Shown: one piece after another, positions 7,825 to 62,958 of the stretch
Numbering within the stretch: position 1 is the first letter of the stretch
Layout of the letters: each line of letters starts with the position of its first letter
Assembly: GCF_029338395.1 (NCBI RefSeq)
Contig: NZ_CP119809.1
Coordinates: forward strand, 248,001-312,000
Length of the DNA: 64,000 nucleotides
DNA from: Halorussus caseinilyticus
GTDB taxonomy: Archaea > Halobacteriota > Halobacteria > Halobacteriales > Haladaptataceae
Direction of reading: 5' to 3'
Program-made: the position numbers and the translations under genes
Notes under the pieces: model-generated
Told to the model about the DNA's origin: nothing
Databases searched by the model: none
What the model saw: only the letters and a program-made list of their open reading frames with translations

Positions 7825-7976
7825 TCGAACCATCTCCCGCGACCCGAACGCTCGCCCGACCTCGACGCACGAGAATTTAAACCCGAAGACGAGACGAACC
7901 CCGCCCGTGACCTGAGTGTCGCCGCGCGGGGAGTCGAGGCGGGTGCGCCGTGTGCCCCCGCGCGGAACCGAAACGC

Positions 7977-8039
7977 GGCCTGTTCGCCACCCGAATCGGC
8001 CTGTCCGTCATCCGAACCGACCTGTTCGCCACCCAGTCG
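7977..8039. repeat. Three tandem copies of a 21-bp unit
   Basis: Units at 7977-7997, 7998-8018 and 8019-8039 share the pattern GGCCTGTTCGCCACCCGAATC with a few substitutions. The repeat lies in a roughly 360-nt gene-free stretch (7825-8186) between the Usp gene and a convergent hypothetical. An open frame across it reads an Arg/Pro-rich repeat and is not believed to be a gene. Confidence 0.75.
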
Positions 8040-8046
8040 AACTGAC

Positions 8047-8108
8047 GGAGCGACGGCGTAGCCGTCGCTCCAGACAGTCGTTCCGTCGCGTCCGGCCGGA
8101 CGCGACGG
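8047..8108. repeat. Hairpin plus 26-bp perfect palindrome
   Basis: GGAGCGACGGC (8047-8057) pairs with GCCGTCGCTCC (8061-8071) across GTA. A 26-bp perfect palindrome with half-site CCGTCGCGTCCGG follows at 8083-8108. The location between convergent genes fits a bidirectional terminator, but no T-run follows. Confidence 0.75.
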
Positions 8109-8186
8109 ATTCGACGGTCCCTTCGGTACTCCGGAAGCGACGCCCGCACCGACAGTGACGGCGACCGGGGTAGCTCTTCGGCCGGG

Positions 8187-8834: not shown

Positions 8835-8932
8835 TACCCGTCGGTTGGGGTTCGGGCGGGTTAACGGTGCTGTGTTCGTGGTCGTCGCTCGCGTAGCGAT
8901 GCGACTGGCCGATTCCGGACGAGTTCGCACCC

Positions 8933-8972
8933 GAGCGCCGCGTTCGCGCGGTTCCGCGCGAACGCGGCGCTC
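8933..8972 (-). terminator. 18-bp perfect hairpin after the HTH regulator gene
   Basis: GAGCGCCGCGTTCGCGCG (8933-8950) is matched exactly by its reverse complement at 8955-8972 with a 4-nt loop. It lies about 90 nt downstream of the minus-strand regulator gene ending at 9062 and upstream of the next minus-strand gene. The position suits transcription termination, but no clear T-run is seen. Confidence 0.5.
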
Positions 8973-9061
8973 GTCCCGTGGACTGTGACAGTCCGCGAAT
9001 CAGGGAACGTAACTGCACTTCCGAGAAAACGACTCGCTTCGGGAAATCCGGACGCTCGTCG

Positions 9062-9457
9062 TCAGTTCTCGGCCGCGACCGGTTGCTGGTCGTACTTGTC
9101 GCGGAACTCCTGAAGCAACTGGCCCATCTTGGCGTACCAGTCGTTGAGCATCCGTTGCATGTCGTCGGCCACCTCGTCGGGGTCGGTCGGCCGGTAGACG
9201 TGGTAGTAGCCGCCCTGTTCGTAGTTGACCTGCTCTTTCTGGACGAATCCGGACTGGAGAAGTCGCTGGATGGACCGGTACGCGGTCGAGCGCTCGCGGT
9301 CTACTCGGTCGGCAACCTCGTCGATAGTCAACGGCTCTTCGGTCTCTACGAGCGCCTGAAAGCACTCCCGGTCGAGTTCCTTCAGCCCGTGGATGCACTC
9401 TAACAGCCCCTCACACTCCATGTCCTTCTGAAGGTATTCAGCCATCGAGTCAGCCAT
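9062..9457 (-). CDS. Cys-containing HTH regulator of the sulfur cluster
   Basis: A 131-residue TrmB/MarR-like winged-helix protein. The start MADSMAEYLQ at 9457 is preferred over the upstream frame because an A/T-rich box lies about 25-35 nt before it. The wing-helix core is TIDEVADRVDRERSTAYRSI followed by a hairpin with GGYYHVYRP. The N-terminus holds three Cys (MECEGLLECIHG, DRECF), placed before the DNA-binding domain, where thiol or persulfide chemistry could alter binding; that is inference. C-terminal helix (DWYAKMGQLLQEFRDKY) is probably the dimer interface. The gene is downstream of the TauE gene and has its own promoter containing a motif shared with two other promoters of the cluster. 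Confidence 0.85.
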   Translation of the reverse strand: MADSMAEYLQKDMECEGLLECIHGLKELDRECFQALVETEEPLTIDEVADRVDRERSTAYRSIQRLLQSGFVQKEQVNYEQGGYYHVYRPTDPDEVADDMQRMLNDWYAKMGQLLQEFRDKYDQQPVAAEN

Positions 9458-9481
9458 TATAGCCGTGGGTAGGAACCAAGC

Positions 9482-9511
9482 ACGTAAAAGGTTTTGCATA
9501 GCTCGTACAAC
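9482..9511 (-). promoter_or_regulatory. Promoter and candidate operator of the sulfur regulator
   Basis: Read on the minus strand, GTTGTACGAGCTATGCAAAA is directly followed by the TATA-like CCTTTTACGT about 25-35 nt before the ATG at 9457. GTTGTRCR also precedes the promoters of the genes starting at 10722 and 13321. Confidence 0.5.
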
Positions 9512-9535
9512 ACTGCGCCGCGCGGTCGCGTCGGC

Positions 9536-10570
9536 TTAGTCGCTGGCCGACGCGACGGGTTCGCTGGTCTCGGCGCGGAGTTCCCGGACGGAACTCACGA
9601 CGACTGCACCGCTGACGAGCAGTGCGGCACCGACGATGATAGCGAGGCTAACCGTGTCCAGCACGGGCATCTCGAAGACGCCGCCGACCTTCCGGACGGC
9701 GACGGCGATAGCGCCCAGCAACAGCATCACGCCGAAGTACACCTTGATGTCGTCCTCCTCGACGAGACCGGTCGCGGCGGCACCGAGTCGCGCCCCGAGC
9801 GCGCTCCCGGCGAGAAGCGGCACTACGATAGAGAGGTTGACCGCGCCGTCCATCGCGTACAGGAAGCTCCCGAGACCGCCCGAGAACACGATTTCGAAGA
9901 GGTCGGTCCCGACTGCGACCGGCACCGGGACGCCGATGAGGTAGAACAGGGCGGGCATCCGGATGAACCCGCCGCCGACGCCGAGGAACCCCGACAGCAG
10001 GCCCGTGGCGAACGCGACGCCGAGAATCATCCAGAGCGAGACCGTCACGCCGCCCCGGAGCGTCATCATCGGGGGGACGTGGTAGGACTGAATAGTCTCG
10101 GCGATGTCCGGGATGTCGTCGGCGTCGAGTTCGTCGTCGCCGTCGGCGTCGTGGCTGACGCCGCCACCGCCACCCGTGACGGCTCTGTGGGTGATGAACA
10201 CGCCGATACCGCCGAGGAGCGCGACGTAGGCTACGCTGACCACCGTGTCGGCCAGACCGGCGTGCTGGAGCCAGTGGAGTCCGATTTTCCCGACTTCGAT
10301 GCCCGCGGTCGTCCCGGCAATCATCAGCACGCCGAGTTTGTAATCGACCTGTCCGAGGTCGCGGTGCTTGAGCGTGGCGATGACGGAGGTACCGAACACG
10401 AACGCGAGTCCGGACGCGACGGCCACGTCGGTCTCGTAGCCCATCACGAGCAACGCGGGCGTGACGAGAAACGACCCGCCCATCCCGAAGAACCCGAACA
10501 GGAGTCCGATGAGTAGCCCGAACCCGGCGAACATGCCCAGCAGGGACGCGGCGATACCGAATATCTCCAT
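9536..10570 (-). CDS. TauE/SafE family sulfur-anion permease
   Basis: A 344-residue membrane protein with eight or more hydrophobic segments. The N-terminal half carries the family motif LFGFFGMGGSFLVTPALL, and the second half the related GFLGVGGGFIRMPALFY. A soluble acidic loop (about residues 135-165) separates the halves, and the C-terminus is acidic. Known members export sulfite, sulfoacetate or related anions. The start at 10570 is 2 nt after the stop of the 49-residue gene at 10573-10722, so these two form an operon. Position among rhodanese, TusA and DsrE genes supports a role moving sulfite or thiosulfate. Confidence 0.92.
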   Translation of the reverse strand: MEIFGIAASLLGMFAGFGLLIGLLFGFFGMGGSFLVTPALLVMGYETDVAVASGLAFVFGTSVIATLKHRDLGQVDYKLGVLMIAGTTAGIEVGKIGLHWLQHAGLADTVVSVAYVALLGGIGVFITHRAVTGGGGGVSHDADGDDELDADDIPDIAETIQSYHVPPMMTLRGGVTVSLWMILGVAFATGLLSGFLGVGGGFIRMPALFYLIGVPVPVAVGTDLFEIVFSGGLGSFLYAMDGAVNLSIVVPLLAGSALGARLGAAATGLVEEDDIKVYFGVMLLLGAIAVAVRKVGGVFEMPVLDTVSLAIIVGAALLVSGAVVVSSVRELRAETSEPVASASD

Positions 10571-10572
10571 CG

Positions 10573-10722
10573 TCAGTCACCCCGGAGGAGTTCCGTGACG
10601 GTCGGTCCGAGCAGTCGCTCTGCGGCCCCGTAGCCGACGTACAGCACGATTGCTTCGAGTAGCACGACGCCTATCAGGAGCGCGGCCCCGACCGGACCCG
10701 TTACGCTTTCAAGCCCGAACAT
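10573..10722 (-). CDS. 49-residue single-span membrane protein (DUF7512-like)
   Basis: A small protein starting MFGLESVTGPVGAA, with one hydrophobic helix (LLIGVVLLEAIVLYVGYG) and a short polar tail ending LLRGD. It is read directly from the reverse complement; the frame is open and ends 2 nt before the TauE start. I recall short haloarchaeal proteins of this type (DUF7512) beside TauE permeases, though the number is unverified. It may be a small subunit or stabiliser of the permease; this is inference from adjacency. Confidence 0.75.
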   Translation of the reverse strand: MFGLESVTGPVGAALLIGVVLLEAIVLYVGYGAAERLLGPTVTELLRGD

Positions 10723-11135
10723 GATTCGTCCACCCCAGTAGTCTTGTATGCTTCATGGATTTCTGTACAACCGTACCTAACTGACTACTCCACTTAACAG
10801 TTTTGGATGGTTTGCACAATACCATATTCCGGTATCCTACGCATGGTTAGGTATAGGTTATGCGTGGCTACGGGTCGGGAATGACGCAAACTGGGCGGGT
10901 GTCGTCCGCACGTGACGAGACGCTTCCGTTCGTCGCGTCGGAGGCGCTCGTCGCGGCCGCTCTCTGCGCGAAGTATATTTCAAAATATAACAATACTACC
11001 ATCGGCTATCCGTCACTCGCCGTTCCGTGACTGTCCGCTCGCGGGGCGGTCGCTCGGTGAGCGTGTGTTTCCCGTTCGAGAACGTCAGCGTCGGTCGGGC
11101 GAATTCGGTCGCAGTGAAGTCGGTCGAAAGTCGAT
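10723..11135. promoter_or_regulatory. Gene-free regulatory region
   Basis: No gene is seen. On the minus strand a TATA-like CATACAAG lies about 25-30 nt before the start at 10722, preceded by GGTTGTACAG (about 10763-10772). A second TTGTGCAA-like site is at about 10812-10818. Near 10839-10865 an imperfect inverted repeat ACGCAT...ATGCGT occurs. A near-palindrome TATATTTCAAAATATA lies at about 10974-10989. Confidence 0.45.
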
Positions 11136-11624
11136 TCAGTCGCTGGTCGGGGTCGCGGCGGCGGCGTCGTCGGTGCGAGCGCGCCAGAGTCCCTGCGCGT
11201 ACGCGCCGAGGAACATCCCGGCGATGGCCAGCAGGATGGGGTAGTTCCCGACGCCGACGCTCGCGTAGGCCGCACCCGGACAGATGCCCGAGATTCCCCA
11301 CCCGACGCCGAAGATGACGCCGCCGGTGAGGACGTTCCGGTCGAACGACTTCAACCGTCGTGCGTAGGGTCGCCCCGTCAGCGGCGCGCGGTCGAGGACG
11401 TGGACGCCAACTGCGAACGCGGTGCCCGCGACCACCGACCCGACGCCGAGTACGAACAGCAGGCCGAAGTCCTCGAACTGGAGGAAGTCCAGCACGACTT
11501 CGGGCCGGGCCATGTGGCTCAGTCCGAGTCCAAATCCGAACACCAGTCCGCCGACCACGATGAGCGGCATGAACAGCGGATGGCGCCCCCGTCCGCCGTC
11601 TGCACCTCCGGTCGGGTCGCTCAC
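11136..11624 (-). CDS. YeeE/YedE transporter half, DUF6691-like
   Basis: A 162-residue membrane protein that looks like the C-terminal half of a YeeE/YedE (TsuA-type thiosulfate) transporter. It starts with GTG at 11624, and that GTGA overlaps the stop of the upstream half. Four or so membrane segments are visible (LIVVGGLVFGFGLGLSHM; GLLFVLGVGSVVAG; GVIFGVGWGISGICPG; AIAGMFLGAYAQGLW). The conserved cysteine motif GICPGAA is present. The partner half is encoded immediately upstream, so the transporter appears to be made from two polypeptides. TsuA-family proteins move thiosulfate along conserved cysteines; substrate here is inferred. Confidence 0.88.
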   Translation of the reverse strand: MSDPTGGADGGRGRHPLFMPLIVVGGLVFGFGLGLSHMARPEVVLDFLQFEDFGLLFVLGVGSVVAGTAFAVGVHVLDRAPLTGRPYARRLKSFDRNVLTGGVIFGVGWGISGICPGAAYASVGVGNYPILLAIAGMFLGAYAQGLWRARTDDAAAATPTSD

Positions 11625-12106
11625 GGCGACACCCCCGCGGCCTGCATCAGTTGGGCGGTCACGATTGCGACTCCGAGGAACGTCGCCACGTTGACCAGCG
11701 AGGTGGGAGCCACCGACCCGACGCCGCAGATGCCGTGGCCGGAGGTACACCCCTTTCCGATTCGAGTGCCGACGCCGACGAGGACGCCGCCGACGAAGAG
11801 GCGCGGCCACGAGACCGAAGTGGTCCAACCGAAGTCGCCGAACGCGAAGGCGTAGATGGCCGCGCCAGCGACGATGCTGAGCGTGAACGCGACCCGCCAG
11901 TCGCGGGAGGCGACGTACTTCGCGCGGTTGAACCGCGGTACGTCGGAGACGTACGACAGCGTCGATTCGAAGAACGTACTCGCTCCGGCCGGAATCGCGG
12001 TGCCGAGGTAGATGGCGGCGGTGCCCAAGCCGATGAGTGCCCCGCCAGCGGCGTACCGCCAGATTCCGTTCGGAAACAAGTCCGCGAACGTTACGAGTGG
12101 TTCCAT
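11621..12106 (-). CDS. YeeE/YedE transporter half, N-terminal type
   Basis: A 161-residue membrane protein with four hydrophobic segments and the family motif GKGCTSGHGICG, whose cysteines are the likely substrate-passing residues. It is 24 nt downstream of the rhodanese-dioxygenase gene and overlaps its partner half by 4 nt, so all three are one operon. The split arrangement is common in archaea and many bacteria. A role in uptake of thiosulfate or another sulfane-sulfur carrier fits the neighbours. Confidence 0.9.
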   Translation of the reverse strand: MEPLVTFADLFPNGIWRYAAGGALIGLGTAAIYLGTAIPAGASTFFESTLSYVSDVPRFNRAKYVASRDWRVAFTLSIVAGAAIYAFAFGDFGWTTSVSWPRLFVGGVLVGVGTRIGKGCTSGHGICGVGSVAPTSLVNVATFLGVAIVTAQLMQAAGVSP

Positions 12107-12130
12107 GGTAGTGTGTCAGTCCTCGATGGT

Positions 12131-13321
12131 TTAGTCGCTAGTCATCGCGTCGGAACTCGCCGCGCAGTTGTTCGGGCCGAGTTCCAACTCGAAGGCTTCT
12201 TCGTCGGTCTGGTCCGCCTGTCCGAGGTTGGTGGCGATGACCTCCTCGTAGTTGGCGGGACGCGGGGGCATGTCAGAGAGGACGAGTTCCACGAACTCGT
12301 CTTCGTCCATCGTGAGCGCGTCCATCTTCTCTTTCAGGTTGCCGATGGTCTCGGTGTAGGTGCCGTCCTCGCGGGTGTCAGCCGCGTCGCTGAAGTGGGC
12401 ACCGCCCACGATAACGTCGTCGTCCAGCGAGAGGACCCGCTCCTGCAACGACTCGTAGAGTTGGCGGGCCGCGTCGGGCGCGCCCTCGTCGCCGCCTTCG
12501 AGGTCCGGTCGGGCCACGCTCTCGGCGAACAGGCCGTCACCGGTCAGGAGAACGGCGTCGTCCACGAGATAGGAGGTCATGCCCGAGGTGTGACCGGGCG
12601 TGAAGACCGTCTCGATTTCCACGTCGCCGACCGCGAAGGTGTCGCCGTCCTCGGCGTGGGTCACCGCGTCGTCGTAGGTGACGCCGCGGTCGATTGCCGC
12701 CGCCGGGAGGACACCCTCGACGCCCTCGTCGGCGAGGGCGCGGACGCCCGACACGTGGTCGGCGTGGACGTGCGTGTCGATTGCGTACGTCAGGTCCGCC
12801 CCGAGCGCCTTGGCGTCCTGCTGGTAGGTGCCGGTGAACGCTCGCAGGGGGTCGATAACCGCGGCCTCGTCGCCGGAGACGACGAGGTAGCTCATACACC
12901 CGCTGGAGGGGCGCTGGTACTGCGCGACGGTGGCGTCGGTGTCGGCGTCTATCTCCACGTACTCGAAGATGCGCGCCCAGCCTTTCATGCCGTCCGCGAG
13001 GTTCTTGGCGTCGTAGCCGCGTTCGATTAGTTCGCCAGCGACGTACTCGCTCGACCCGCCCTTCGCGCAGACGACCGTAATCTCGCGGTCGTCTGGCAAC
13101 TGCTCGAAGACTTCCTCGTCGGGTTCGCCCGCGAGGAACTCGAAGTACGGGACGTTGAGGCTCTCGACGTTCTCGCCGTCGATGGCCCACTCTTCTACGT
13201 CGTCGGGGACGCGCGTATCGAGGACGAACACGTCCTCTCCGGCGTCGATTCGCTCTTTCAGCGTCTCGGGTTCGATGCTTCCGACCTCCACGTCCGGGGT
13301 CGGGAACTCTGGTTCGCTCAT
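12131..13321 (-). CDS. Rhodanese - metallo-beta-lactamase persulfide dioxygenase fusion
   Basis: A 396-residue two-domain enzyme. Residues about 10-120 form a rhodanese domain with the active-site cysteine loop CAKGGSS. Residues about 135-390 form a metallo-beta-lactamase domain with THVHADHVSG, a later GHTSG and TGDGLF, matching the ETHE1/persulfide dioxygenase type. Such fusions oxidise glutathione- or thiol-persulfide to sulfite and pass sulfane sulfur between carriers. A domain order of rhodanese first is the reverse of some bacterial fusions. It heads the operon with the YeeE/YedE halves, and its promoter shares the GTTGTRCR motif with the regulator gene. The ATG at 13321 has a TATA-like CCTTATGTG about 28 nt upstream. 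Confidence 0.93.
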   Translation of the reverse strand: MSEPEFPTPDVEVGSIEPETLKERIDAGEDVFVLDTRVPDDVEEWAIDGENVESLNVPYFEFLAGEPDEEVFEQLPDDREITVVCAKGGSSEYVAGELIERGYDAKNLADGMKGWARIFEYVEIDADTDATVAQYQRPSSGCMSYLVVSGDEAAVIDPLRAFTGTYQQDAKALGADLTYAIDTHVHADHVSGVRALADEGVEGVLPAAAIDRGVTYDDAVTHAEDGDTFAVGDVEIETVFTPGHTSGMTSYLVDDAVLLTGDGLFAESVARPDLEGGDEGAPDAARQLYESLQERVLSLDDDVIVGGAHFSDAADTREDGTYTETIGNLKEKMDALTMDEDEFVELVLSDMPPRPANYEEVIATNLGQADQTDEEAFELELGPNNCAASSDAMTSD

Positions 13322-13348
13322 TACGAGTTAACCTAATCGGACGCTCGC

Positions 13349-13386
13349 ACATAAGGCTTTGCATAGTATTGCGTTAACTGCACAAC
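13349..13386 (-). promoter_or_regulatory. Promoter and candidate operator of the dioxygenase operon
   Basis: On the minus strand GTTGTGCAG (13378-13386), then ATACTATGCAAAG (about 13356-13368), precede a TATA-like CCTTATG. The TATGCAAA and GTTGTRCR elements are both shared with the regulator promoter at 9482-9511. Confidence 0.45.
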
Positions 13387-13598
13387 ATAGATTTGCGGCG
13401 GTCTCGTCGGGTCTCGAACCGGAATACGCTTTATTCGGGGACGAAAACCCGTATTCAACGACTCTATCGTTTCATCGTGCGCGTCAACCGTGGCGGCTTG
13501 GCGTCTGGAACTTGTTCGTCACACCCAAGAACCAACAACCTTATATCCTGCCAGCCGGTATTGCTCGGTACACACAAGATAGACCACTGGTGTTACCA

Positions 13599-13856
13599 AT
13601 GAGTGAAACATACGACGTTACCGAGACGCTAGACGTGAAAGGACAGTCCTGCCCGATGCCCGTCGTCAAGTCCAAGCAAGCGACCGACGACCTCTCGGAG
13701 GGCGACGTGCTGGAAGTCGTCGCCACCGACTCCGGGAGCATGAGCGACATCGAAGGGTGGGCGAACACGACCGACGGCGTGGAACTGCTTGACCAAGCCG
13801 AGTCCGACGAGGGCGGCGAAGCAGTGTTCAAACACTACGTGCGCAAGACCGAATAA
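13599..13856 (+). CDS. tusA: TusA-family sulfur carrier protein
   Basis: An 85-residue protein with the TusA motif GQSCPMPVVKSKQA, whose Cys (residue 19) carries a persulfide. TusA homologues pass sulfur between rhodaneses, DsrE proteins and acceptors such as tRNA thiolation or sulfur-oxidation enzymes. The ATG at 13599 begins the conserved domain; a TATA-like CTTATATCC lies about 55 nt upstream, implying a short leader. It ends one base before the DsrE-like gene, so the pair is an operon divergent from the dioxygenase operon. Confidence 0.93.
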   Translation: MSETYDVTETLDVKGQSCPMPVVKSKQATDDLSEGDVLEVVATDSGSMSDIEGWANTTDGVELLDQAESDEGGEAVFKHYVRKTE

Positions 13857-13857
13857 C

Positions 13858-14442
13858 ATGAGTACGGACACCCCACAGAGTCCCGACCCCGCGGCGAACG
13901 CCGAGGAGGTCGCGGACCTGCAGGCGCGAATCGACGAACTGGAGGAGGAGCTATCGGCGGTCAAGTCCGAGGTGGGCGACGGCCAGAAGAAGATGACCAT
14001 CATCGCCACGAAGGGCACCTTCGACATGGCGTACCCACCGCTCATCCTCGCCAGCACCGCCGCCGCGTTCGGGTGGGACGTTGTGGTCTTCCACACGTTC
14101 TGGGGACTCGACATCCTCCACGAGGAGAAGTCCAAGAACCTCAAGATGAGCGCGGTCGGCAACCCGAGCATGCCGATGCCCAACGCCATCGCCTCGCTCC
14201 CGTTCATGGACTCGATGGCGACCAAGATGATGGAGAAGAAGATAGACGAGCAGGGCACCGCGACCATCGAGGAACTCATCGAGATGTCGCTGGACACCGG
14301 CGTCGATTTGCAGGCCTGCCAGATGACGATGGAACTGATGGACTACGACGAAGCCGAGATGTACGACGACGTGACGACGGGCGTCGGCGCGGCCACCGCG
14401 CTCGAACACATGGCCGACGCCGACATCCAGTTGCTCGTCTGA
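13858..14442 (+). CDS. DsrE/DsrF/DrsH-like sulfur-relay protein
   Basis: A 194-residue protein with an N-terminal coiled-coil (ADLQARIDELEEELSAVKSEV) followed by a DsrE-like fold (MTIIATKGTFDMAYPPLILA). The segment DLQACQMTMELMDY holds the single likely persulfide-bearing Cys. This is the DsrE2 type often found beside TusA and rhodanese, where it accepts or donates sulfane sulfur. It follows tusA by 1 nt. Confidence 0.9.
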   Translation: MSTDTPQSPDPAANAEEVADLQARIDELEEELSAVKSEVGDGQKKMTIIATKGTFDMAYPPLILASTAAAFGWDVVVFHTFWGLDILHEEKSKNLKMSAVGNPSMPMPNAIASLPFMDSMATKMMEKKIDEQGTATIEELIEMSLDTGVDLQACQMTMELMDYDEAEMYDDVTTGVGAATALEHMADADIQLLV

Positions 14443-53849: not shown

Positions 53850-54641
53850 ATGGTTCCCGACCCAACCGACCTCGTCTCTCTCGTCAACCGTCGGTACGAT
53901 TACCTCCAAACGCTCAGCGACACCCCTCGGTCGAAACGAGACCTCGTAGACACGCTCGACACTCCACGCTCGACCTTGGACGATATTGTCCGCGAACTCG
54001 ACGAGAACGGTCTCGTCGAATACCACAATGGTACATGGCAACTCACCACATTTGGTCGCTGTGCCCTCGACCTCCACACCGAATACGAAGACGACCTCGA
54101 AAGCCTCCTCTCGACGCCTCCCGTCATCGAGGACCTCCCCAACGACACACCCGTCGGAAACCGACTCCTCGTCGGTGCAGAAACCAACGTTTCGACGGCG
54201 GCCATCCCCGACGCGGTGATGGAAGTGTTCTTCGAGTCGCTCAAGTCAGCGACTCGAATCCGATGTTTCACTCCGACGGTGATGGCCGGACACTACGAAT
54301 CGGTCTATCAATCGGCGACGACGGGAGGAGAATCCCGACTCGACCTCATCTTCTCGGCCAACGTGTTCGACCACCTCCAACGATTCTACCCCGAACGAAT
54401 AGACGAGATGCTCGCCGACGAGAACATTACTTGCTACGTTGGCGATGTCCCAGTGACCTTCTCGCTGTGGATTGCCGATGACGACCACGTCGGAATCATC
54501 GTCTACACCGAACAAGGCATCCGCGGCATCGTGAAAAACGACACCGACGATGCTCTAGCGTGGGGTATCGAGCAGTACAACCGGATTCAGCGGGACGCGA
54601 GACGGGTTTCTCGCGCCGAGGTGGACTCCACTCCCCGCTAG
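53850..54641 (+). CDS. HTH regulator, FilR1/DUF1724-type (second copy)
   Basis: A 263-residue regulator related to the one at 23250-24014: winged helix (PRSKRDLVDTLDTPRSTLDD, ELDENGLVEYHNGTW) and a FilR1-like C-terminal domain ending GIRGIVKNDTDDALAWGIEQ. The two copies end with the same G-I-R/F-G-I-V-K/R-N pattern. Divergent from the Tat-exported protein at 53157-53660. Target unknown. Confidence 0.85.
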   Translation: MVPDPTDLVSLVNRRYDYLQTLSDTPRSKRDLVDTLDTPRSTLDDIVRELDENGLVEYHNGTWQLTTFGRCALDLHTEYEDDLESLLSTPPVIEDLPNDTPVGNRLLVGAETNVSTAAIPDAVMEVFFESLKSATRIRCFTPTVMAGHYESVYQSATTGGESRLDLIFSANVFDHLQRFYPERIDEMLADENITCYVGDVPVTFSLWIADDDHVGIIVYTEQGIRGIVKNDTDDALAWGIEQYNRIQRDARRVSRAEVDSTPR

Positions 54642-54716
54642 CCACGAAGACCCATCTCCCGAGTACGACGATTGGAAGCGCACACGCCGAGAAGATACCC
54701 CCGACGGAAATCCGAA

Positions 54717-54732
54717 TACTTGAACGAGAGTA
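54717..54732. promoter_or_regulatory. Candidate TrmB operator
   Basis: TACT-TGAACGA-GAGTA (54717-54732) fits the TACT-N7/8-GAGTA motif published for Halobacterium TrmB. It lies about 40 nt before the trmB start, so it suggests autoregulation. Confidence 0.7.
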
Positions 54733-54771
54733 TACGTGGAAGTTATTGAGGGGGCAGAACAAGAAACCGGT

Positions 54772-55842
54772 ATGGACTCGACCGAACTCGTGGACATTCT
54801 GGAGCGATACGGTCTCTCCCCGTATCAAGCGACCGCGTACGTCACCGTGTTGGAGCGGGGAACCCTCGCCGCCCAAGAAGTCGCCAACCTCAGTTCCGTC
54901 CCCCAACCGCGCGTCTACGACATCCTGCGGGACCTCGAAGAGGAGGGGTTCGTCACGACCTACGAACAGGACAAACTCTACGTGCAGGCGCTCAATCCCG
55001 ACGACGCTCTCGACGTGGTGAGAGAGCGCGCGGCCGAACTCGAAGCGGCCGTCGAGGAGATTACCGACCGGTGGCAACAACCCGCGGTCAAAGAACACAC
55101 CATCAGTCTGGTCCAGCGGGGCCAGACGGTCTTCGAGAAGGCCCGCGAGGAACTCGACCACGCCGTGGACCACGCCCAACTCGTCTGTAAGACCGACCAC
55201 CTCGAGGCGTTGTGGCCGACGCTCGTCGCCGCCCACGACCGGAACGTCTTCGTGGACGTATCGCTGTACGACGTGGAAGACCGCGAGTCGCTGGCCGAGT
55301 ACGACTTCTCGGAACTCTGTACTCACGCCCGCGTCCTCCGGCGTCCGCTTCGGTCCGACCCCTTCGGCGCGCTCATCGACCGCGAGCGGGCCTGTTACTC
55401 GTGGTACCCCGCGACCGACGACGAGTACGGCATCTACATCGACGACAGCGCCCACGAGAACATGGTGTGGAACTTCATGATGAACCTCCGGGACGCCGCC
55501 GAGGAACACTACATCGCCACGCCCTACGACCCGCCGCTCCGGTTCGGCGCGCTTCGGGACTGCCTGCACGTCGTCGAACCGCTCGTCCGCGAGGGTCGGA
55601 CGCTCACCGCCGAAATCGAGGGGACGTGGGTCGATAGCGGCCGCCGGTGTGAGGTCGCCGGGACGGTCCTGAACATCGACTATCCGGGGTTCGAGGCGGG
55701 CGAGACGGCCACGCCCCTCCAGATGTTCACCGACGCTCGCCTCACCCTCGACACCGGCGACGAGACGTACACCGTCGGCGGGTTCGACGCTCTCATCGAG
55801 GACATCGAGGCGACCCGCGTCGTCGTGACGGGCATCGAGTGA
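54772..55842 (+). CDS. trmB: Sugar-responsive regulator TrmB
   Basis: A 356-residue TrmB-family regulator that in haloarchaea links sugar level to gluconeogenesis, glycolysis and cofactor genes. The N-terminal wHTH (MDSTELVDILERYGLSPYQA, VANLSSVPQPRVYDILRDL) is followed by the typical coiled region (AAELEAAVEEITDRWQQP) and a C-terminal sugar-binding domain (about 150-356). Start at 54772 matches the family N-terminus; the GTG at 54736 would add 12 unrelated residues. The TACT-N7-GAGTA site is immediately upstream. Confidence 0.92.
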   Translation: MDSTELVDILERYGLSPYQATAYVTVLERGTLAAQEVANLSSVPQPRVYDILRDLEEEGFVTTYEQDKLYVQALNPDDALDVVRERAAELEAAVEEITDRWQQPAVKEHTISLVQRGQTVFEKAREELDHAVDHAQLVCKTDHLEALWPTLVAAHDRNVFVDVSLYDVEDRESLAEYDFSELCTHARVLRRPLRSDPFGALIDRERACYSWYPATDDEYGIYIDDSAHENMVWNFMMNLRDAAEEHYIATPYDPPLRFGALRDCLHVVEPLVREGRTLTAEIEGTWVDSGRRCEVAGTVLNIDYPGFEAGETATPLQMFTDARLTLDTGDETYTVGGFDALIEDIEATRVVVTGIE

Positions 55843-55872: not shown

Positions 55873-56820
55873 TCACGCCGTCCGGACGTTCAGCACGCCG
55901 GGGTCGGTCTCGACTTCCACGACTGCGACGCCGGGCGCACCCGCGTTGACGACGTACCGGTCGCCACTGTCGGTCGCCACGGTGTCGATGCCGTACTGGT
56001 GGGTGTGGCCGCCGAACGCCGCGTGGGGGCTGGCGCGGCGAATCGCGTGCTTGAGCGCGAGCGACCCGCTCCGGACCCGTCCGTAGAGACCGGACCCGGA
56101 GTGGTGGTGGTCGAACGCCACGTCGAACGGCGGGACGTGCGCGAACAGCAGGACTCGTTCGTCGGCGGTCGCAAGCGAGTACAGCGTCTCGTAGCGGTCT
56201 TCGAGTGTCTCCAACTGGTCGACCAGACGCGCCTTCGCCCGGCCAGCGACGCCGAGTGCGTCCGCCACGTCGTCGCCGTCGGCGTCACCGTCGAGGTACC
56301 GGCCAGCGACCGATTCGACCTCGTTCGCGCGCTCGGCCGCGAGGTGGTCGATGGTCGCCGTGGTCGCGTCTTCGACGGGGTTGGTCGCGGAGAACTCGGT
56401 GTACCGAATCTCGGGCGCTTGGTCGAACTGCTCGCACCCCCACCCGGCGAACGCGAACCCGTCGAGGTCCGATAGCCCGAGTTCCGCGGCGTCCACCGCT
56501 CGCTCGTGGAGGACGACCGCCCGGTCGAGTCCCTCGGTGAGGCGCTCGGCGCAGTCCAGCGGGTCGTGGTTGCCGGGCACGACCAGAATCGGGAGGTCGT
56601 ACTCGTCGTGGAGGAACTCGTAGAACGCCCGGCCGACGCGCTCGTAGCGTTCGCCCGCCGCCGCGGACTTGGCGTGGTCGCGGTTCTCGTCGATGACATC
56701 CCCGACGGTCACGACGGCGTCGAACTTCGCTTCCTCGATTGCGGGCCGGGCGTACGCCGGTCGGTCGTCTCCCGGTCCGAGATGTAGGTCGTTGAGGAGG
56801 AGGAGTCGCACGCTACTCAC
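55873..56820 (-). CDS. Calcineurin-type metallophosphoesterase
   Basis: A 315-residue phosphoesterase. The metal motifs are clear: NDLHLGP (DxH), VVTVGDVID (GD), VVPGNHD (GNHD), FAHVPPFD (H) and AFGGHTHQYG (GHxH). It could be a phosphatase, phosphodiesterase or nuclease. It starts with GTG at 56820 inside the end of the TIM-barrel gene, and is the last gene of a five-gene overlapping operon. Confidence 0.93.
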   Translation of the reverse strand: MSSVRLLLLNDLHLGPGDDRPAYARPAIEEAKFDAVVTVGDVIDENRDHAKSAAAGERYERVGRAFYEFLHDEYDLPILVVPGNHDPLDCAERLTEGLDRAVVLHERAVDAAELGLSDLDGFAFAGWGCEQFDQAPEIRYTEFSATNPVEDATTATIDHLAAERANEVESVAGRYLDGDADGDDVADALGVAGRAKARLVDQLETLEDRYETLYSLATADERVLLFAHVPPFDVAFDHHHSGSGLYGRVRSGSLALKHAIRRASPHAAFGGHTHQYGIDTVATDSGDRYVVNAGAPGVAVVEVETDPGVLNVRTA

Positions 56821-57745
56821 TTCCCCTCGCGTCGGCCATCCGGTCCCGAAGCGCCGTGACGCGCCGCCGCAACTCGTCGGAGTCGGCCAGCAGGTCCGCG
56901 CTCGGTTCGACCACGACCTGCGCTCCGAGGTCCGGAACCGTCGCCAGCGCCCGGTCGAGAACCGGGTCCTCGTGGTGGGCGTCGAAGCGCGGCACGCCGT
57001 CGGTGGTCGGGTCGTTCAGGTGGACGCTCCCGACCGCTCGGCCGCCCAACCGGAGCGACTTCAGAAGCGGCAGGTACGGACTGTCGGCGTCCGTCGGCGG
57101 CCACGCATCGGGCGTCCGGTCGTCGAGTTCGGACTCGAAGTCGCGGGCCGCGGGCGGGACGCCCGGCCCGAGTCGCGTCCGAATCGCCTCGACGTTCTCC
57201 GGGTCGAGACGGCGGCCCGCCCCTTCGCGGGGGAGGTGGGCGCTATCGACCGTGAGTCGGAGGTCCGACAGCGGCCGGTACCGGCGCGCGAGCGAGGCGA
57301 CGAACCCGAGGTCTTCGGGGGTGTGCCACGGCGACTCGACGGCGGTGTTCTCGACCGAAATCTCCCGGTTGGTTAGTTCGAGCAAGTTCGACAACAGCGG
57401 TATCGCGTCGTCGTACCCCGACTTCTTCGGCGGATGCGCGACCAGCGTGGCCGCCCGGAGACGGTCCAACTGCCCGTGAACGAAGTCCACAATCGTCCCG
57501 CGGTTCGCGGCCGTGAGCGCCATCCCCACCTCGTCGCCGCGGGTCTCGGTGCCCGGCGGGAGGTGGACGCTGGCGATGCGGTGAGCCTCGACGCCGCTGG
57601 CGTCGAGGCGGGCGTCGAGGTCGGATTCGCCGACCAACAGGTCGCGGTGGTCCCAACTGAACTTGAGTTCGACCGCACCGGGAACTCGCGCGGCGACCGA
57701 GAGTCGGTCGGGCGGGAGCGACACCGCAATCGGCGGGTCTAACAC
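56813..57745 (-). CDS. TIM-barrel protein, endonuclease IV / sugar isomerase superfamily (copy 2)
   Basis: A 310-residue xylose-isomerase-like TIM barrel starting with GTG (VLDPPIAVSLPPDRLS). Metal-site-like motifs: VAHPPKKSG, SVENTAVESPW (Glu), LTVDSAHLPREG (Asp-His) and SVHLNDPTTD (His-Asp). The superfamily includes sugar-phosphate isomerases/epimerases and endonuclease IV. It overlaps its neighbours by 7 and 8 nt. Substrate unknown. Confidence 0.85.
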   Translation of the reverse strand: MLDPPIAVSLPPDRLSVAARVPGAVELKFSWDHRDLLVGESDLDARLDASGVEAHRIASVHLPPGTETRGDEVGMALTAANRGTIVDFVHGQLDRLRAATLVAHPPKKSGYDDAIPLLSNLLELTNREISVENTAVESPWHTPEDLGFVASLARRYRPLSDLRLTVDSAHLPREGAGRRLDPENVEAIRTRLGPGVPPAARDFESELDDRTPDAWPPTDADSPYLPLLKSLRLGGRAVGSVHLNDPTTDGVPRFDAHHEDPVLDRALATVPDLGAQVVVEPSADLLADSDELRRRVTALRDRMADARGSE

Positions 57746-58674
57746 GCGCCTCCCTCCCGAACGGCGTCCGAAATCCGGGCCACCGCCTCGGCGGTCTCGA
57801 ACGCCGACCGAAGTTCGACCACGACCGGACAGTCGATGTCGCGGGCGTCGAGCGCGTCGGCCACGCGGCCGAGCGACGGCGCGCCGACGGTCGGCGGCAG
57901 GTGGTGGTACTCGCCGACCGACTCCTCGACCGCGAGTGCGTCCGACGACTCGACGCCGAACGTCTCGCACACGCTCCCGAGTTCGTCGGTCGCACTCGCC
58001 GGGAGCGTCCCGTGGAGGTGGACGCTCGCGGGCGACTCCACGGCGTCTAGCAACTCGAAGGGGTCGCGCGCGTGCCCGAGGTCGCAGGTGAACGCGAGGG
58101 CGTCCCGTCGCCCGAGGCGGTCGGCCGTCGCCCGCAACGCCGTCACGTCCTCGGGCGTCGTCAGGAGGTAGTCGAACGGCCCACGCGGGCAGACGTTCTC
58201 CAGTGCGACCGGGCCGCGGTACCGGCGTTCGGCCCGTCGGTGGTCTCTCGACGCCGCGAGGGTCCGGACGAGTCGCTCGCGCCGCGCTTCGAGGTCGGCG
58301 CTCTCGGCCGCCGGAAACCGCGGCGGGTGGACCGTCGTGAGTTCCGGCGCGAGGTTGCGGACTCGCTCGACGTTTCCGTCGTCGTCGTGTTCGTAGACCA
58401 TCTGGCTCTCCTTGAGGTGGGTGTTGAGTTCCACGTCGCCGTCGTCTTCCGCGCCCCGAACCAGCGGCGGGAGGTGGACGGTCCGCACGTCGAGACCGAA
58501 CGACTCGGCCTTCGACACGTCGTGTTCGACGTAGGACATCGCGTTGACCGTGACGAACAGTTCGACGGGTATCCTCCGGTCGGCGAGTTCGGCGAGAAAG
58601 TCGCGGAGTCGCTGGTCGCCGCGGGAGGCCTGCGAGAGTTCGTCCTGCGTCACGCTGAAACGGAGGTCGGTCAC
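57739..58674 (-). CDS. TIM-barrel protein, endonuclease IV / sugar isomerase superfamily (copy 1)
   Basis: A 311-residue protein, divergent from copy 2 but with the same plan: ELFVTVNAMSYV, RTVHLPPLVRG, TTVHPPRFPA, VALENVCPRGPFDY (Glu), FTCDLGHARDPF (Asp-His) and SVHLHGTLP (His). It starts with GTG 11 nt after the winged-helix gene and ends inside copy 2. Two such enzymes in tandem may act as a heterodimer or as successive steps. Confidence 0.85.
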   Translation of the reverse strand: MTDLRFSVTQDELSQASRGDQRLRDFLAELADRRIPVELFVTVNAMSYVEHDVSKAESFGLDVRTVHLPPLVRGAEDDGDVELNTHLKESQMVYEHDDDGNVERVRNLAPELTTVHPPRFPAAESADLEARRERLVRTLAASRDHRRAERRYRGPVALENVCPRGPFDYLLTTPEDVTALRATADRLGRRDALAFTCDLGHARDPFELLDAVESPASVHLHGTLPASATDELGSVCETFGVESSDALAVEESVGEYHHLPPTVGAPSLGRVADALDARDIDCPVVVELRSAFETAEAVARISDAVREGGAC

Positions 58675-58685
58675 GGTTCCGCTCG

Positions 58686-59243
58686 CTACTCCTGCAACTC
58701 CTGTAACCCCTCTCGAACCGCCGAGCGGGGCATCTCGGTGTCGGACGCGATTCGTCCGACGTGTCGGGCGGTCAGGTCCTCCACGAAGAAGTCGTTCTTG
58801 AGCGCCCAGTTGCGAATCGCGTCGGCGATGCTCGGCGTGTAGAGGACGGTCCGTCCGTCGCGGTACCGCCCGAGTTCGCCCGCGTCCACTAGCGCGTTCA
58901 GTTGGTTCGACATCCACGGCCGGTGTTTGGCCGACTGGTACTCCTCGAAGAACGACGGATGCTGTTCGCCGATGAGGTCGATAATCTGGGTCGTGCTTCG
59001 GGGACTGCCCATCGACGTGAGGAGTTCGCCGAGTCGTTCCTGTGCGGGCGTGACCTCGATTGCCTCCCGGTTCTCGGCGGTCTCGACCGATTCCGAGTCG
59101 GCACCGAGGTAGCCGAGGTCCGAGAGCGTCTCGCGCAACAGCGCCGGGTCGTTCTCCGCGAGTCGTCGCAGTGCCGTCTTCGTCTCCGAGTCGAGCGTCT
59201 CGAAAACGGCTTGGAGTTCTCCGTCGGTGGCGTCACGAACCAT
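58686..59243 (-). CDS. Winged-helix protein of the JAMM operon
   Basis: A 185-residue soluble protein. An N-terminal helical part (residues about 1-50: LQAVFETLDSETKTALRRLA) precedes a winged helix (about 70-140: STTQIIDLIGEQHPSFFEEY, MSNQLNALVDAGELGRYRDG) and a further C-terminal HTH-like segment (RHVGRIASDTEMPRSAVREG). The ATG at 59243 lies within the end of the JAMM gene (11-nt overlap). It may be a DNA-binding regulator or an adaptor of the complex. Confidence 0.8.
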   Translation of the reverse strand: MVRDATDGELQAVFETLDSETKTALRRLAENDPALLRETLSDLGYLGADSESVETAENREAIEVTPAQERLGELLTSMGSPRSTTQIIDLIGEQHPSFFEEYQSAKHRPWMSNQLNALVDAGELGRYRDGRTVLYTPSIADAIRNWALKNDFFVEDLTARHVGRIASDTEMPRSAVREGLQELQE

Positions 59244-60045
59244 CGGCTATCACCACGTCCCGCGAGTTTCTGAACCGCGGGCCGAACAGCGCGAGTTCGT
59301 GCCGGTACTGGTCGCCGCGCCACGAGATACCGCTATTGAGGGCGGTCGGGTCGTGGCGCTCTTCGACCGACGGGACGCCCGACTGTTCGACGTAGGCGTG
59401 GATGCCGTGGAAGAACTCGAAGTCGTCGGTGCCGAACGCGTCTTCGTAGCAACTCTTGACGCTCTCTGCGCTCTTTCGGTCCACATCGCTCGGCGTCGTC
59501 GTCCCGCCGGGATGGGTGTGGAACCGGGCGATGACGTTTGGCGTCTCGCCGTCGGGGTACGACGCGGCCACGCGCCGCGCGACCTTCCCTTCGAGCGTGG
59601 TGACGCTACTGCGGGTCGCCGACTTGTAGTACTCGGGTTTGTCGAGACCGAACAGTTCGGTCGGCGTCGTCGGCGACTGGCCCGTCAGGACGTACACCGT
59701 CTCGACGCGTTCGTGGGCACCGTTCTTGCCACGGGTTTCGAGCGCCTGCATGAACGGCTTCGAGTCGGGGAACGCGAACGTCCCGCGCGAGTAGGTTCCG
59801 ACAGGGGAGTCTCGCGGCGAGACCTTCGGTTGCGGGTCCGTCTGCGGTCGCGTCTTGGTCGAACTCTTCTCGGAGGACACGTCGAACGTGTGGGTGTCGA
59901 ACCACGAGTCACCGTCCAGTATGCCCGAGGGGTCACCTGACCCGACGTTCACGTCGGTTCCCCACGCGCCAGCGTTGGTTCGGACTTCCACGTCGGGGTC
60001 GTCGGCGGAATCGTCGTCGTCGTCTCCGAAGAAGCGGTCGAACAT
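59233..60045 (-). CDS. JAMM/MPN-domain metalloprotease
   Basis: A 270-residue protein. Residues about 1-85 are an acidic, low-complexity head (MFDRFFGDDDDDSADDPD, with a Ser/Thr/Pro-rich linker). The MPN domain follows: VETVYVLTG supplies a Glu upstream, and HTHPGGTTTPSDVD is a perfect H-x-H-x7-S-x-x-D zinc motif. In haloarchaea JAMM enzymes remove ubiquitin-like SAMPs; this one is longer than those desampylases and has a different context. It heads an overlapping operon with a winged-helix protein, two TIM barrels and a phosphoesterase. Start at 60045 is 35 nt after the upstream membrane-protein gene. Confidence 0.92.
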   Translation of the reverse strand: MFDRFFGDDDDDSADDPDVEVRTNAGAWGTDVNVGSGDPSGILDGDSWFDTHTFDVSSEKSSTKTRPQTDPQPKVSPRDSPVGTYSRGTFAFPDSKPFMQALETRGKNGAHERVETVYVLTGQSPTTPTELFGLDKPEYYKSATRSSVTTLEGKVARRVAASYPDGETPNVIARFHTHPGGTTTPSDVDRKSAESVKSCYEDAFGTDDFEFFHGIHAYVEQSGVPSVEERHDPTALNSGISWRGDQYRHELALFGPRFRNSRDVVIADGS

Positions 60046-60080: not shown

Positions 60081-60836
60081 TCACTTTTTGACTCCGATGT
60101 TGATGTCCCGCGGACTCATCTTGGTCATCGCCAGCACCGCGACCAGCAGGATGAACATGAGACCGCCGATAATCAGCAGGTTCTGGGAGACGGGCAGACT
60201 GCTCTCGGACTCCTCCGGTGCCGGTCCCGAAGTCGTCTGAGTCTGCTCGCTTCCGGTGTTCTCGGTCGCCTCGACGGGTTCTTTCACGTCGAAGGTGAAC
60301 GACATGCCGTCGATTTCCTGCGCGAGGTCCTTGTGGCCCTTGGGCCAGTAGGTGATGTCGGCGGTGACGGTGCGCTTGCCGGTGTTGGTGCTGTAGACGT
60401 TCGCGCGGATGTCCTTGATGCCGCCCTGCGGTCGGACCTCGAAGCTACCCGAAACCATGCCAGCACCGCCCGAGAGGATGTCGGACGAACCCTGGATGGT
60501 CATCCCGCTCGGGACGCTCATCGTGATTTGGACGACGACGGGACAGGTCGCCGTCGGTGAGACTTGGAAGCCCCCCGAGATTTCACCGGGCTGGGACGCC
60601 TTGACGGTCTTCTGAGGCGCGTACAGTCGGGCTTGGTCCATGCTCGGCGGCGAGGACAGGTCGCCACACTCGCCTTGGGTGGTGGCGGGTGCCGCCGCGG
60701 TGGTGGTAGTCTGGGTCGTGTTCTGAGCCGTGGTGTTACTCTGGAGCTGTGCGGCCGCTGGAGCGGCGACTCCCGCCCCGAGGACGAGAAGCGCCGTCAT
60801 TGCGACGAACGCGCGCTGAAGTTTGGTATCTTTCAT
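60081..60836 (-). CDS. Exported membrane-anchored protein before the JAMM operon
   Basis: A 251-residue protein with a signal sequence (LQRAFVAMTALLVLGAGVAA), a Thr/Gln/Asn-rich stretch with sequons, a beta-rich domain with two Cys (GECGDLSS and TATCPVVVQ) likely disulfide-bonded, and a C-terminal membrane helix (NLLIIGGLMFILLVAVLAM) followed by a short basic tail. A TATATATA box lies about 27-34 nt before the ATG at 60836. Only 35 nt separate it from the JAMM gene, so they may share a transcript. Confidence 0.8.
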   Translation of the reverse strand: MKDTKLQRAFVAMTALLVLGAGVAAPAAAQLQSNTTAQNTTQTTTTAAAPATTQGECGDLSSPPSMDQARLYAPQKTVKASQPGEISGGFQVSPTATCPVVVQITMSVPSGMTIQGSSDILSGGAGMVSGSFEVRPQGGIKDIRANVYSTNTGKRTVTADITYWPKGHKDLAQEIDGMSFTFDVKEPVEATENTGSEQTQTTSGPAPEESESSLPVSQNLLIIGGLMFILLVAVLAMTKMSPRDINIGVKK

Positions 60837-61044: not shown

Positions 61045-62958
61045 CTATCGGCGACGAGCGAGGAGGACGAACCCTGCGAGCGCCAACGCCGCCGCTCCGA
61101 CGCCGAATCCGGGCGTCTCCGTGGAACTCGTGGTTTCGGTGCTCTCGTCGCCGGTCTGGGCCTCGGAGAGGACCTGTAGCGGAATCGTGACCGATTTGCT
61201 CGTGGCGTTGTCCTTGTCCTCGCCTAAGTAGTACACCGCGTGACCGGTGATGCCGAACCGTCCCGGTTCGTTCGCCGAGAGTTCGATTTCGAGTCCCTTC
61301 GTGCCGCCGGGCGAGAGCGTCATCGTCCGGACGTACTGGCCGCTTCCGCTGTCCACGAACCCGGTTCCCTCCACGGAGACGCCGCTGGGCGTCTCGATGA
61401 TGAGTTGGACGTGCATCTGGCCGTCGTTGGAGATGAGATTCGACGCGCTGAACGTCAAAATCGCGGGTTCGTCCCGGCCCACGATGGTCTTCTCTCCGCG
61501 CAACAGGAGGTTCACCCGGTCGCTGGCGACGTTGAGCGACTTCTGTTCGACTACATTCTCGCCACCGCCGCCACTGCCCCGGACCGTGGCCGATTCGGTT
61601 TCCGGGTTGCTCTCTACGGGGTCGAGACCCTTCCGGACCTCGCTGGCGTCCGACCGACCGTCGCCGTCGGTGTCGGCGTCCGTCGGGTCCGTGCCGAGTT
61701 CGGCCTCCTTGTCGTCGGGCAACCCGTCGCCGTCGGTGTCGGCTTTCGTCGGGTCGCTCCCGGTGGACAGTTCCTCTTGGTCGGTCAGGCCGTCGCCGTC
61801 GGTGTCGGCGTTCGTCGGGTCGGTTCCCTCCTCGACTTCCGTGCCGTCGTCCAGACCGTCGCCGTCCGTATCGACCGCGAGCGGGTCGGAACCGGCGTCC
61901 GACTCGTCCCCGTCGTCGAGTCCGTCGCCGTCGGAGTCGGCGGTCAGCGGGTCGGTTCCGGCGTCGAGTTCCGCGCCGTCGTCGAGTCCGTCGCCGTCGG
62001 TGTCCGCTTCCAGCGGGTCCGTCTCGCCCTCGACTTCTTCGGCGTCGGTCAGGCCGTCGCCGTCGGTGTCCTCGTTTCGTGGGTCGGTCCCGAGTTCTTC
62101 CTCGCGGCTGTCGATGAGTCCGTCGCCGTCCAAATCGTTGAGTTCGACCCCGACCTGCTTGGTCTCGGTACTCCCGGACTCGGCCCACGTCGGGACGACT
62201 TCCGCCGTGACCGAAACGTCACCCGACTCGTCGGGGGCGAACGTGTACGAGAACTCCACGTCCGTGGACTCGTCTTCGGCGAGCGACACCTGCTTCGTGC
62301 CGACGACGCGGGACCCGACTTCGAGGGTGACGGTGGCGTTGTCCCGGAAGTCACCCGCCTTCTCCTCGTTGTAGTCGAGTCCCGCGTTCGTGTTCGACAC
62401 CGTGAGTCTCGTTGTGACTTCTTCGCCGACCGTCGGCGACGACGGGAACAGCTCGAAGGTGTCCACCTCGAACTTCTCGGAACTCGACTGCTGGACCTCG
62501 AACTGGACGTGGGTGTCCTCGGCGCTGTACCGCCGGTAGAAATCGACGTAGATGTAGTACCATCCCGACTCCTCTACGGTCGGGTAACTCTGTCGTTCGT
62601 ACTCCTCGCTGAAGTCGTCCCATCCCCAGATGCCGATGCGCTCGGTTCCGCTCGCCGTCTCTCTGTGCAGGTAGAAGGTGTACGACTCGTCGGTCTTGAT
62701 ACACCAGTCCTCGGGGACGATTGCGCTCCCCGGTTTTTCGACGTATATTTTGAACCAGCGTCCCGAGTCGGTGTTCGAACCCAACTCCACGTAGTCGCCG
62801 CTCTTTATGGTCTGGGCCGCCGACTGCTCGGTCCCGCCGTCCTCGAACTGGTAGTCCTCCGAAATCTCCTCGCAGTGGGCGCTCGCTGGCGCGGGGGCGA
62901 ACGCCAACGCCCCGACCAGTAGTATCACGACCAATAGGAATTCCGTTCGAAATGTCAT
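61045..62958 (-). CDS. Thrombospondin type 3 repeat surface protein with PGF-CTERM
   Basis: A 637-residue exported protein. A signal peptide (FLLVVILLVGALAFAPAPAS) is followed by an N-terminal beta domain (about 25-165), a CARDB-like segment (about 170-270), eight Ca-binding repeats of about 22 residues (each with DxDGDGLxD), a second beta domain, and the C-terminal TPGFGVGAAALALAGFVLLA sorting signal with basic end. Repeats of this kind stiffen surface stalks in the presence of calcium. An ATATATG-type box lies about 25 nt upstream of the ATG at 62958. Confidence 0.92.
   Translation of the reverse strand: MTFRTEFLLVVILLVGALAFAPAPASAHCEEISEDYQFEDGGTEQSAAQTIKSGDYVELGSNTDSGRWFKIYVEKPGSAIVPEDWCIKTDESYTFYLHRETASGTERIGIWGWDDFSEEYERQSYPTVEESGWYYIYVDFYRRYSAEDTHVQFEVQQSSSEKFEVDTFELFPSSPTVGEEVTTRLTVSNTNAGLDYNEEKAGDFRDNATVTLEVGSRVVGTKQVSLAEDESTDVEFSYTFAPDESGDVSVTAEVVPTWAESGSTETKQVGVELNDLDGDGLIDSREEELGTDPRNEDTDGDGLTDAEEVEGETDPLEADTDGDGLDDGAELDAGTDPLTADSDGDGLDDGDESDAGSDPLAVDTDGDGLDDGTEVEEGTDPTNADTDGDGLTDQEELSTGSDPTKADTDGDGLPDDKEAELGTDPTDADTDGDGRSDASEVRKGLDPVESNPETESATVRGSGGGGENVVEQKSLNVASDRVNLLLRGEKTIVGRDEPAILTFSASNLISNDGQMHVQLIIETPSGVSVEGTGFVDSGSGQYVRTMTLSPGGTKGLEIELSANEPGRFGITGHAVYYLGEDKDNATSKSVTIPLQVLSEAQTGDESTETTSSTETPGFGVGAAALALAGFVLLARRR
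61616..62136 (-). repeat. Eight 66-bp units encoding DxDGDGxxD repeats
   Basis: The nucleotide repeat of about 66 bp encodes 22-residue thrombospondin type 3 units with core DTDGDGLTD. The recurring GTCGCCGTCGGTGTCGGC makes the DNA prone to copy-number change. Confidence 0.85.

Follow-up and report, generated by a model that had tools for sequence, protein, structure and literature searches.

Gene organization of the locus

We analysed a stretch of 64,000 nucleotides from Halorussus caseinilyticus (contig NZ_CP119809.1, positions 248,001 to 312,000, hereafter the window), in which five adjacent genes encode a JAMM metalloprotease-like protein (JAMM), a winged-helix protein (wHTH), two TIM-barrel proteins (TIM1 and TIM2) and a calcineurin-like metallophosphoesterase (MPE). 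The original prediction, made from the sequence alone, regarded them as one coordinated machine on account of their common strand, overlaps of 7-11 nt and a single gap of 11 nt. The open reading frames and spacings are as it described: JAMM and wHTH overlap by 11 nt, TIM1 and TIM2 by 7 nt and TIM2 and MPE by 8 nt, and 11 nt separate wHTH from TIM1. Beyond the genes covered by the original prediction, the same-strand run extends upstream of JAMM, with the gene SP258 at a distance of 35 nt followed by a gene for a PGF-CTERM surface protein. The features are as follows, each protein of the two modules described below being assigned to its module:

59233-60045, minus strand: JAMM, 270 aa, stand-alone JAMM/MPN+ metalloprotease-like protein; core module
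59479-59520, minus strand: metal-site motif of JAMM, HxH...D segment from H176 to D189, coordinates derived from the open reading frame
59737-59739, minus strand: conserved JAMM Glu, E103
58686-59243, minus strand: wHTH, 185 aa, winged-helix protein; core module
60081-60836, minus strand: SP258, signal-peptide-like N-terminus, Ig-like domain, C-terminal transmembrane helix and short tail; core module
60084-60122, minus strand: SP258 residues 239-251, predicted to form a cytoplasmic tail at the C-terminus and proposed as ligand or substrate of JAMM
57739-58674, minus strand: TIM1, 311 aa, GTG start, AP_endonuc_2/xylose-isomerase-like barrel; accessory module
56813-57745, minus strand: TIM2, 310 aa, GTG start, second isomerase-like barrel; accessory module
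55873-56820, minus strand: MPE, 315 aa, GTG start, calcineurin-like metallophosphoesterase; accessory module
61045-62958, minus strand: 637 aa, surface protein with TSP3 repeats and a weak PGF-CTERM match

The TSP3-repeat protein matches Pfam TSP3_bac with an E-value of 7e-43, and its PGF-CTERM match (TIGR04126, E 0.001) scores 18.7 against a cut-off of 24.5. Ratios of non-synonymous to synonymous substitution (dN/dS) lie between 0.17 and 0.41 in 12 pairwise comparisons over the five genes and SP258 (0.18 and 0.24 for JAMM), therefore all six are selected as proteins.

Distribution of the five genes

Among 293 haloarchaeal genomes of the order the five genes are all intact in only one, the window genome. 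JAMM was matched in 10 genomes; one of these (G138) has a broken 77-residue piece interrupted by 3 stops and was excluded, so that 9 JAMM genomes entered the co-occurrence statistics. TIM1 was matched in 7 genomes, including one 35-residue remnant and one copy split by stops, TIM2 in 7, two of them 34-residue remnants, and MPE in 22 at E<=1e-10. Five JAMM-bearing relatives within Halorussus differ in their barrels. G066 has kept JAMM, wHTH, TIM2 and MPE, with TIM1 cut to about 50 codons by an in-frame internal deletion, while G114 and G176 have kept JAMM, wHTH, TIM1 and MPE, with TIM2 truncated after about 36 codons. JAMM, wHTH, TIM2 and MPE are present in G074, which has no TIM1 and carries a PKD gene ahead of TIM2-MPE, and G124 has JAMM-wHTH without TIM1, TIM2 and MPE. 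Part of the genus therefore probably inherited the five-gene order from a common ancestor, and either of the barrels can disappear. JAMM-wHTH pairs without barrels are also found in Halobellus, Haloquadratum and at other loci.

TIM1, TIM2 and MPE form a second module that is separable and repeatedly found together. A Haloplanus rubicundus plasmid without JAMM has both barrels and MPE within ~4 kb; their neighbours are two more metallophosphoesterases, DUF1810, a dual-specificity phosphatase, SIMPL and a tubulin-like protein. Similar clusters without JAMM contain TIM2-MPE in G100 and a broken TIM1 with MPE in G126. TIM1 occurs with no MPE nearby in G272 and G210, and in G281 TIM2 and MPE lie far apart. 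Altogether, a TIM gene and MPE are both present in 8 of the 10 TIM genomes (hypergeometric 1e-8 by genome and 0.003 by genus, without correction for phylogeny). JAMM and a TIM gene are common to 5 genomes, all of one genus (p = 1.7e-6 by genome and 0.21 by genus, without correction for relatedness).

If all five proteins formed one machine for nucleic-acid repair, defence or nucleotide processing, the overlapping reading frames in the window, the purifying selection on all five genes and the 5 genomes shared by JAMM and TIM would find an explanation. Against this stand the single intact set, the barrel remnants in G066, G114 and G176, the lack of TIM1 in G074, the two genes of G124 and the barrel-free JAMM-wHTH loci; PADLOC families gave weak matches only to the five genes (<=21.7 bits). 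We regard such a machine as improbable, and the distribution together with the barrel remnants rules it out as our main explanation: either of JAMM-wHTH and TIM1-TIM2-MPE can be present where the other is missing, and the five families are not found together beyond close relatives. The repair or defence pathway that had been proposed for the operon likewise gained no positive evidence, the constant partners of the core being secreted surface proteins.

The core module and the SP258 tail

The core module of SP258, JAMM and wHTH is conserved across two archaeal classes. Using profiles built here, we found the order SP258-JAMM-wHTH in Halorussus, G280, Halobellus inordinatus (G215) and G088, and also in a Haloquadratum metagenome-assembled genome (L073), an uncultured metagenome-assembled genome (L076) and a Halobellus ramosii plasmid (L082). 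At a contig end of Halorubrum californiense (L075) JAMM and wHTH alone are visible. In all 12 haloarchaeal loci that can be read, a count that leaves out the contig end L075, the gene immediately upstream of JAMM is SP258, and wHTH adjoins JAMM in 13/13 (own profile A4); L071, L072 and L074 duplicate G176, G124 and G215 and were not counted. Surface proteins of the PGF-CTERM or PKD kind with the SP258 domain usually accompany the core; a homologous PKD surface protein is present at 9 of the 12 loci and an annotated PKD protein at a tenth. The H. ramosii plasmid also carries a metallophosphoesterase 28% identical to MPE, ~8 kb from JAMM, which we treated as generic.

In 246 genomes sampled across the phylum, JAMM was matched three times outside the order (G411, G377 and G454). 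G506 was found by a search of its class, where 6/59 genomes matched; this count includes G411 and G454, which match by construction since both are in the query alignment, and the short weak matches G504, G505 and G498. In both G411 and G506 an SP258-like gene, JAMM, a gene for a PGF-type secreted protein and wHTH follow each other in that order on one strand. These secreted proteins resemble the window TSP3 protein in its C-terminal part, with 41% (G411) and 38% (G506) identity over 129-142 residues. No JAMM relative was found on viral contigs.

Residues 6-24 and 220-238 of SP258 are hydrophobic, and the hydropathy profile predicts a C-terminal transmembrane helix followed by a short cytoplasmic tail. 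A hydrophobic helix with a short tail and no PGF is present in the JAMM-linked SP258 of 14/14 loci, the tails having basic residues and, close to the end, a hydrophobic-x-hydrophobic stretch. The SP258 domain also forms the C-terminal domain of PGF-CTERM proteins elsewhere in these genomes; unlike them, JAMM-linked SP258 lacks the PGF motif and keeps its predicted cytoplasmic tail. Of the SP258-domain proteins at 11 loci away from JAMM, 9 end in PGF-CTERM and 2 at the transmembrane helix (G066 at L168 and G083 at L171). Halorussus G017 has no JAMM, and its SP258, 67% identical to the window copy, carries PGF-CTERM. SP258 was matched in 10 of 185 genomes, 7 of which are JAMM-positive; the match at G074:1107580 lies inside L046. 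Second SP258-like genes near JAMM (L047 14170-14832, L048 12074-13012 and L046 3409-4596) have neither tail nor PGF and were not scored as linked. Since the genomes are related and the loci are not independent events, the contrast between linked and unlinked tails is suggestive.

Three further large PGF-CTERM surface proteins with an SP258-type C-terminal domain are encoded in the window genome (L163, L164 and L165; G000:C1 366-369 kb, 741-743 kb and 2277-2280 kb). They are possible clients of the same system.

JAMM, wHTH and their possible substrates

The JAMM zinc motif had been described as intact, and comparison bears this out: E103, H176, H178, S186 and D189 are invariant in 10/10 aligned relatives, so that the catalytic Glu, the HxH pair, Ser and Asp are all present. 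Against Pfam Prok-JAB (PF14464) the window protein scores 21.3, below the gathering score of 25, which is passed by its relatives in G411 (25.9) and G377 (30.7). The metal-site residues E, HxH, S and D are common to JAMM and the desampylase HvJAMM1. Unlike HvJAMM1, the haloarchaeal JAMM proteins have an acidic N-terminal extension of ~90 residues, and instead of E1 or ubiquitin-like (Ubl) proteins their fixed partners are SP258 and wHTH. The present operon resembles prokaryotic ubiquitin-like operons (JAB, E1, E2 and Ubl) in its compactness and its JAB-type enzyme, but lacks E1, E2 and Ubl.

JAMM could be a deconjugase of the desampylase type that lies among surface genes by chance. Its intact residues would suit this role, and regulation of HvJAMM1-SAMP1 has been published (PMC4443979). 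However, JAMM scores 15.1 on the NCBIfam desampylase model NF041370, far under the cut-off of 130, no Ubl, E1 or E2 was detected among the 10 window proteins scanned, and linkage to surface proteins extends over two classes. We consider this explanation unlikely.

The strongest rival to an action on SP258 concerns wHTH. ImmA/ImmR and BlaR1/BlaI are pairs of a metalloprotease and a repressor, in which, as here, a metalloprotease-like gene is coupled to a winged-helix gene and a membrane protein. By analogy, JAMM would be the protease of wHTH, or of a conjugate on wHTH, and SP258 a regulated output or a sensor. This would agree with the adjacency of the two genes in all 13 haloarchaeal loci, with the overlap of their reading frames in most gene calls, and with the best match of wHTH in PDB, a penicillinase repressor, although this match is insignificant (E 0.36); other wHTH matches were to generic HTH families, all under cut-offs. 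The present genes differ in encoding a JAMM fold, not M78 or M56, and a separate membrane protein with its bulk predicted outside the cell. Moreover, a secreted-protein gene separates JAMM from wHTH in G411 and G506, while SP258 stays directly upstream of JAMM, and the pairing of tail and JAMM would be left without an explanation. Cleavage of wHTH is accordingly a possibility to which we give a rather low probability.

The accessory module

The calcineurin phosphoesterase of the original prediction is confirmed: MPE passes Pfam PF00149 (37.9 against 21.5), and its blocks GD..DENRDHAKS, GNHD, GWGCEQFD and GHTH are conserved over 9 relatives. The two EndoIV/isomerase-like barrels fared differently by fold and by sequence. 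TIM1 is weakly AP_endonuc_2-like (PF01261, 17.9, under the gathering score of 31.1), and TIM2 has no family match in Pfam or NCBIfam scans, PF01261 included. Predicted models of both, for which the underlying alignments were shallow (5 and 4 sequences), match the expected fold: that of TIM1 (pLDDT 78.7) matches tagatose-3-epimerase and sugar isomerases (best E 5e-8), and that of TIM2 (pLDDT 87.1) matches UlaE and rhamnose isomerase (best E 1e-6). The models thus match TIM barrels of the xylose-isomerase/tagatose-epimerase/AP_endonuc_2 type, a superfamily (tagatose 3-epimerase, UlaE, CbiR) whose fold and His/Glu/Asp positions are like those of TIM1 and TIM2. These positions are conserved in both barrels and suggest that each contains a metal site. 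Comparison of the TIM1 and TIM2 profiles with hhalign gave a probability of 0.6%, from too few sequences to be informative. Judged from the enzyme families, the substrate of the module would be a phospho-sugar or a nucleotide. Cobamide remodelling by a CbiR-like TIM1 was rejected: TIM1 scores 16.2 on the CbiR model NF041277, far under its cut-off of 105, and the other TIM1 loci examined have no cobalamin-type neighbours. The rejected idea had been built on genes near TIM1 that we presumed to be of cobalamin type.

The Haloplanus rubicundus plasmid region (L081, NZ_CP031147.1, 198739-219677) contains, at 655-14056, a cluster that includes an Mrr-type endonuclease, the tubulin-like protein (PF13809) and three metallophosphoesterases, possibly an unnamed system of its own. 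In G126 (L052, G126:C16, 6104-9436) a small ubiquitin-like open reading frame, E2-like open reading frames and an E1-JAB fusion (ThiF E 5e-39) directly adjoin the MPE/DUSP/FtsZ-like/SIMPL/TIM1 cluster; the Prok-E2_E match is weak there, PADLOC E1-E2 matches are present, and the Ubl label was assigned by eye. Because TIM/MPE-type clusters elsewhere adjoin an Mrr-type endonuclease gene and an E1-JAB locus, the accessory module may have a role in conflict.

A search with the FtsZ-like gene matched 282/293 genomes. Since the matches are mostly canonical FtsZ-type genes, it cannot be used as a countable marker of accessory clusters. The window genome has a second, divergent FtsZ-like gene (L114 11037-12134, G000:C1 near 1651118-1652128), which is nearest to the accessory-cluster types and has none of the accessory cluster around it.

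Genomic setting

The cassette of Halorussus is flanked on one side by a pair of ParA-type genes and on the other by a T2SSF/pilin cluster. The interval between these anchors measures ~1-3 kb in five JAMM-negative species (G136, G130, G041, G017 and G156), ~6-11 kb in G066, G124 and G074 and ~36 kb in the window genome, where it holds very large secreted-type and DUF6603 proteins. All six JAMM-positive Halorussus have this type IV pilus-like cluster (T2SSF and DUF7289-type pilins) upstream in the region, so that the cassette might be regarded as part of it. The same cluster, however, occupies the same anchors in the five JAMM-negative Halorussus examined, and the T2SSF gene is on another contig than JAMM in G215 and G088 and ~0.5 Mb away round the chromosome in G280. 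The pilin cluster is therefore an anchor, not a partner; we rejected it as such, and it is highly improbable that the cassette belongs to it.

The large insert that separates the SP258/TSP3 genes from the pilin cluster (L062 11086-19999 and L063 244-9757, G000:C1 311086-329757) encodes proteins of 816, >2153, 1273, 1162 (DUF6603) and 736 aa, the first with a lamin-tail domain. On the other side, FilR1-type and TrmB-type regulator genes adjoin MPE on the opposite strand (window 53850-55842), and JAMM-less G136 has a TrmB 87% identical to that of the window at the same anchor. Window positions 3001-4000, between called genes, have 38% GC in a genome of ~65% GC.

Discussion

The explanation we favour, at roughly even probability, is that two separate modules were joined in Halorussus and that a membrane-linked JAMM/wHTH cassette acts on the SP258 tail. 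The Ig-like domain of SP258 would sit in the cell-surface layer, with the short C-terminal tail in the cytoplasm. JAMM enzymes hold an extended ubiquitin C-terminus, which the SP258 tail may resemble; a cytoplasmic JAMM may bind or trim this tail at the membrane in a similar way. wHTH, a probable DNA-binding protein translated in overlap with JAMM, would then relay the outcome to the transcription of surface-protein genes. TIM1, TIM2 and MPE form an independent and dispensable set of probable metal enzymes, which was recruited beside the core in Halorussus and would act one after the other on a sugar phosphate or a nucleotide.

Several points weigh against this proposal. The tail sequence is not strictly conserved, and the tail model builds on sequence co-variation among related genomes. 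A clear SP258 is missing in 2 of the 4 loci examined outside the order: in G377 JAMM lies beside a different secreted protein, with a weak wHTH match 1 kb on, and G454 has no SP258, with neither SP258 nor wHTH in order. wHTH may bind no DNA. Finally, translation of the barrels and MPE is coupled to that of the core in the window, and a functional link within Halorussus would explain this as well.

In a bolder reading, the core could be a system for signalling or processing in archaea that is new to the literature: a surface protein would offer its cytoplasmic C-terminus, similar to the ubiquitin tail, to a dedicated JAMM with a winged-helix partner, and this pathway, kept across two classes, would do without a ubiquitin-like protein. 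We put this forward tentatively, as doubtful. No named system with the five-gene combination had been known to the original prediction, and we found no description of either module in the open-licence PMC literature; novelty is provisional because it rests on text searches of that literature.

The locus also warns against reading too much into overlapping genes of an operon: two modules on which evolution acts separately are tightly coupled here in a single genus. The core is a compact three-gene unit open to testing. JAMM enzymes are generally discussed together with ubiquitin-like tags, and partners such as SP258 and a winged-helix protein would, if the proposal is true, represent a different job for the fold.

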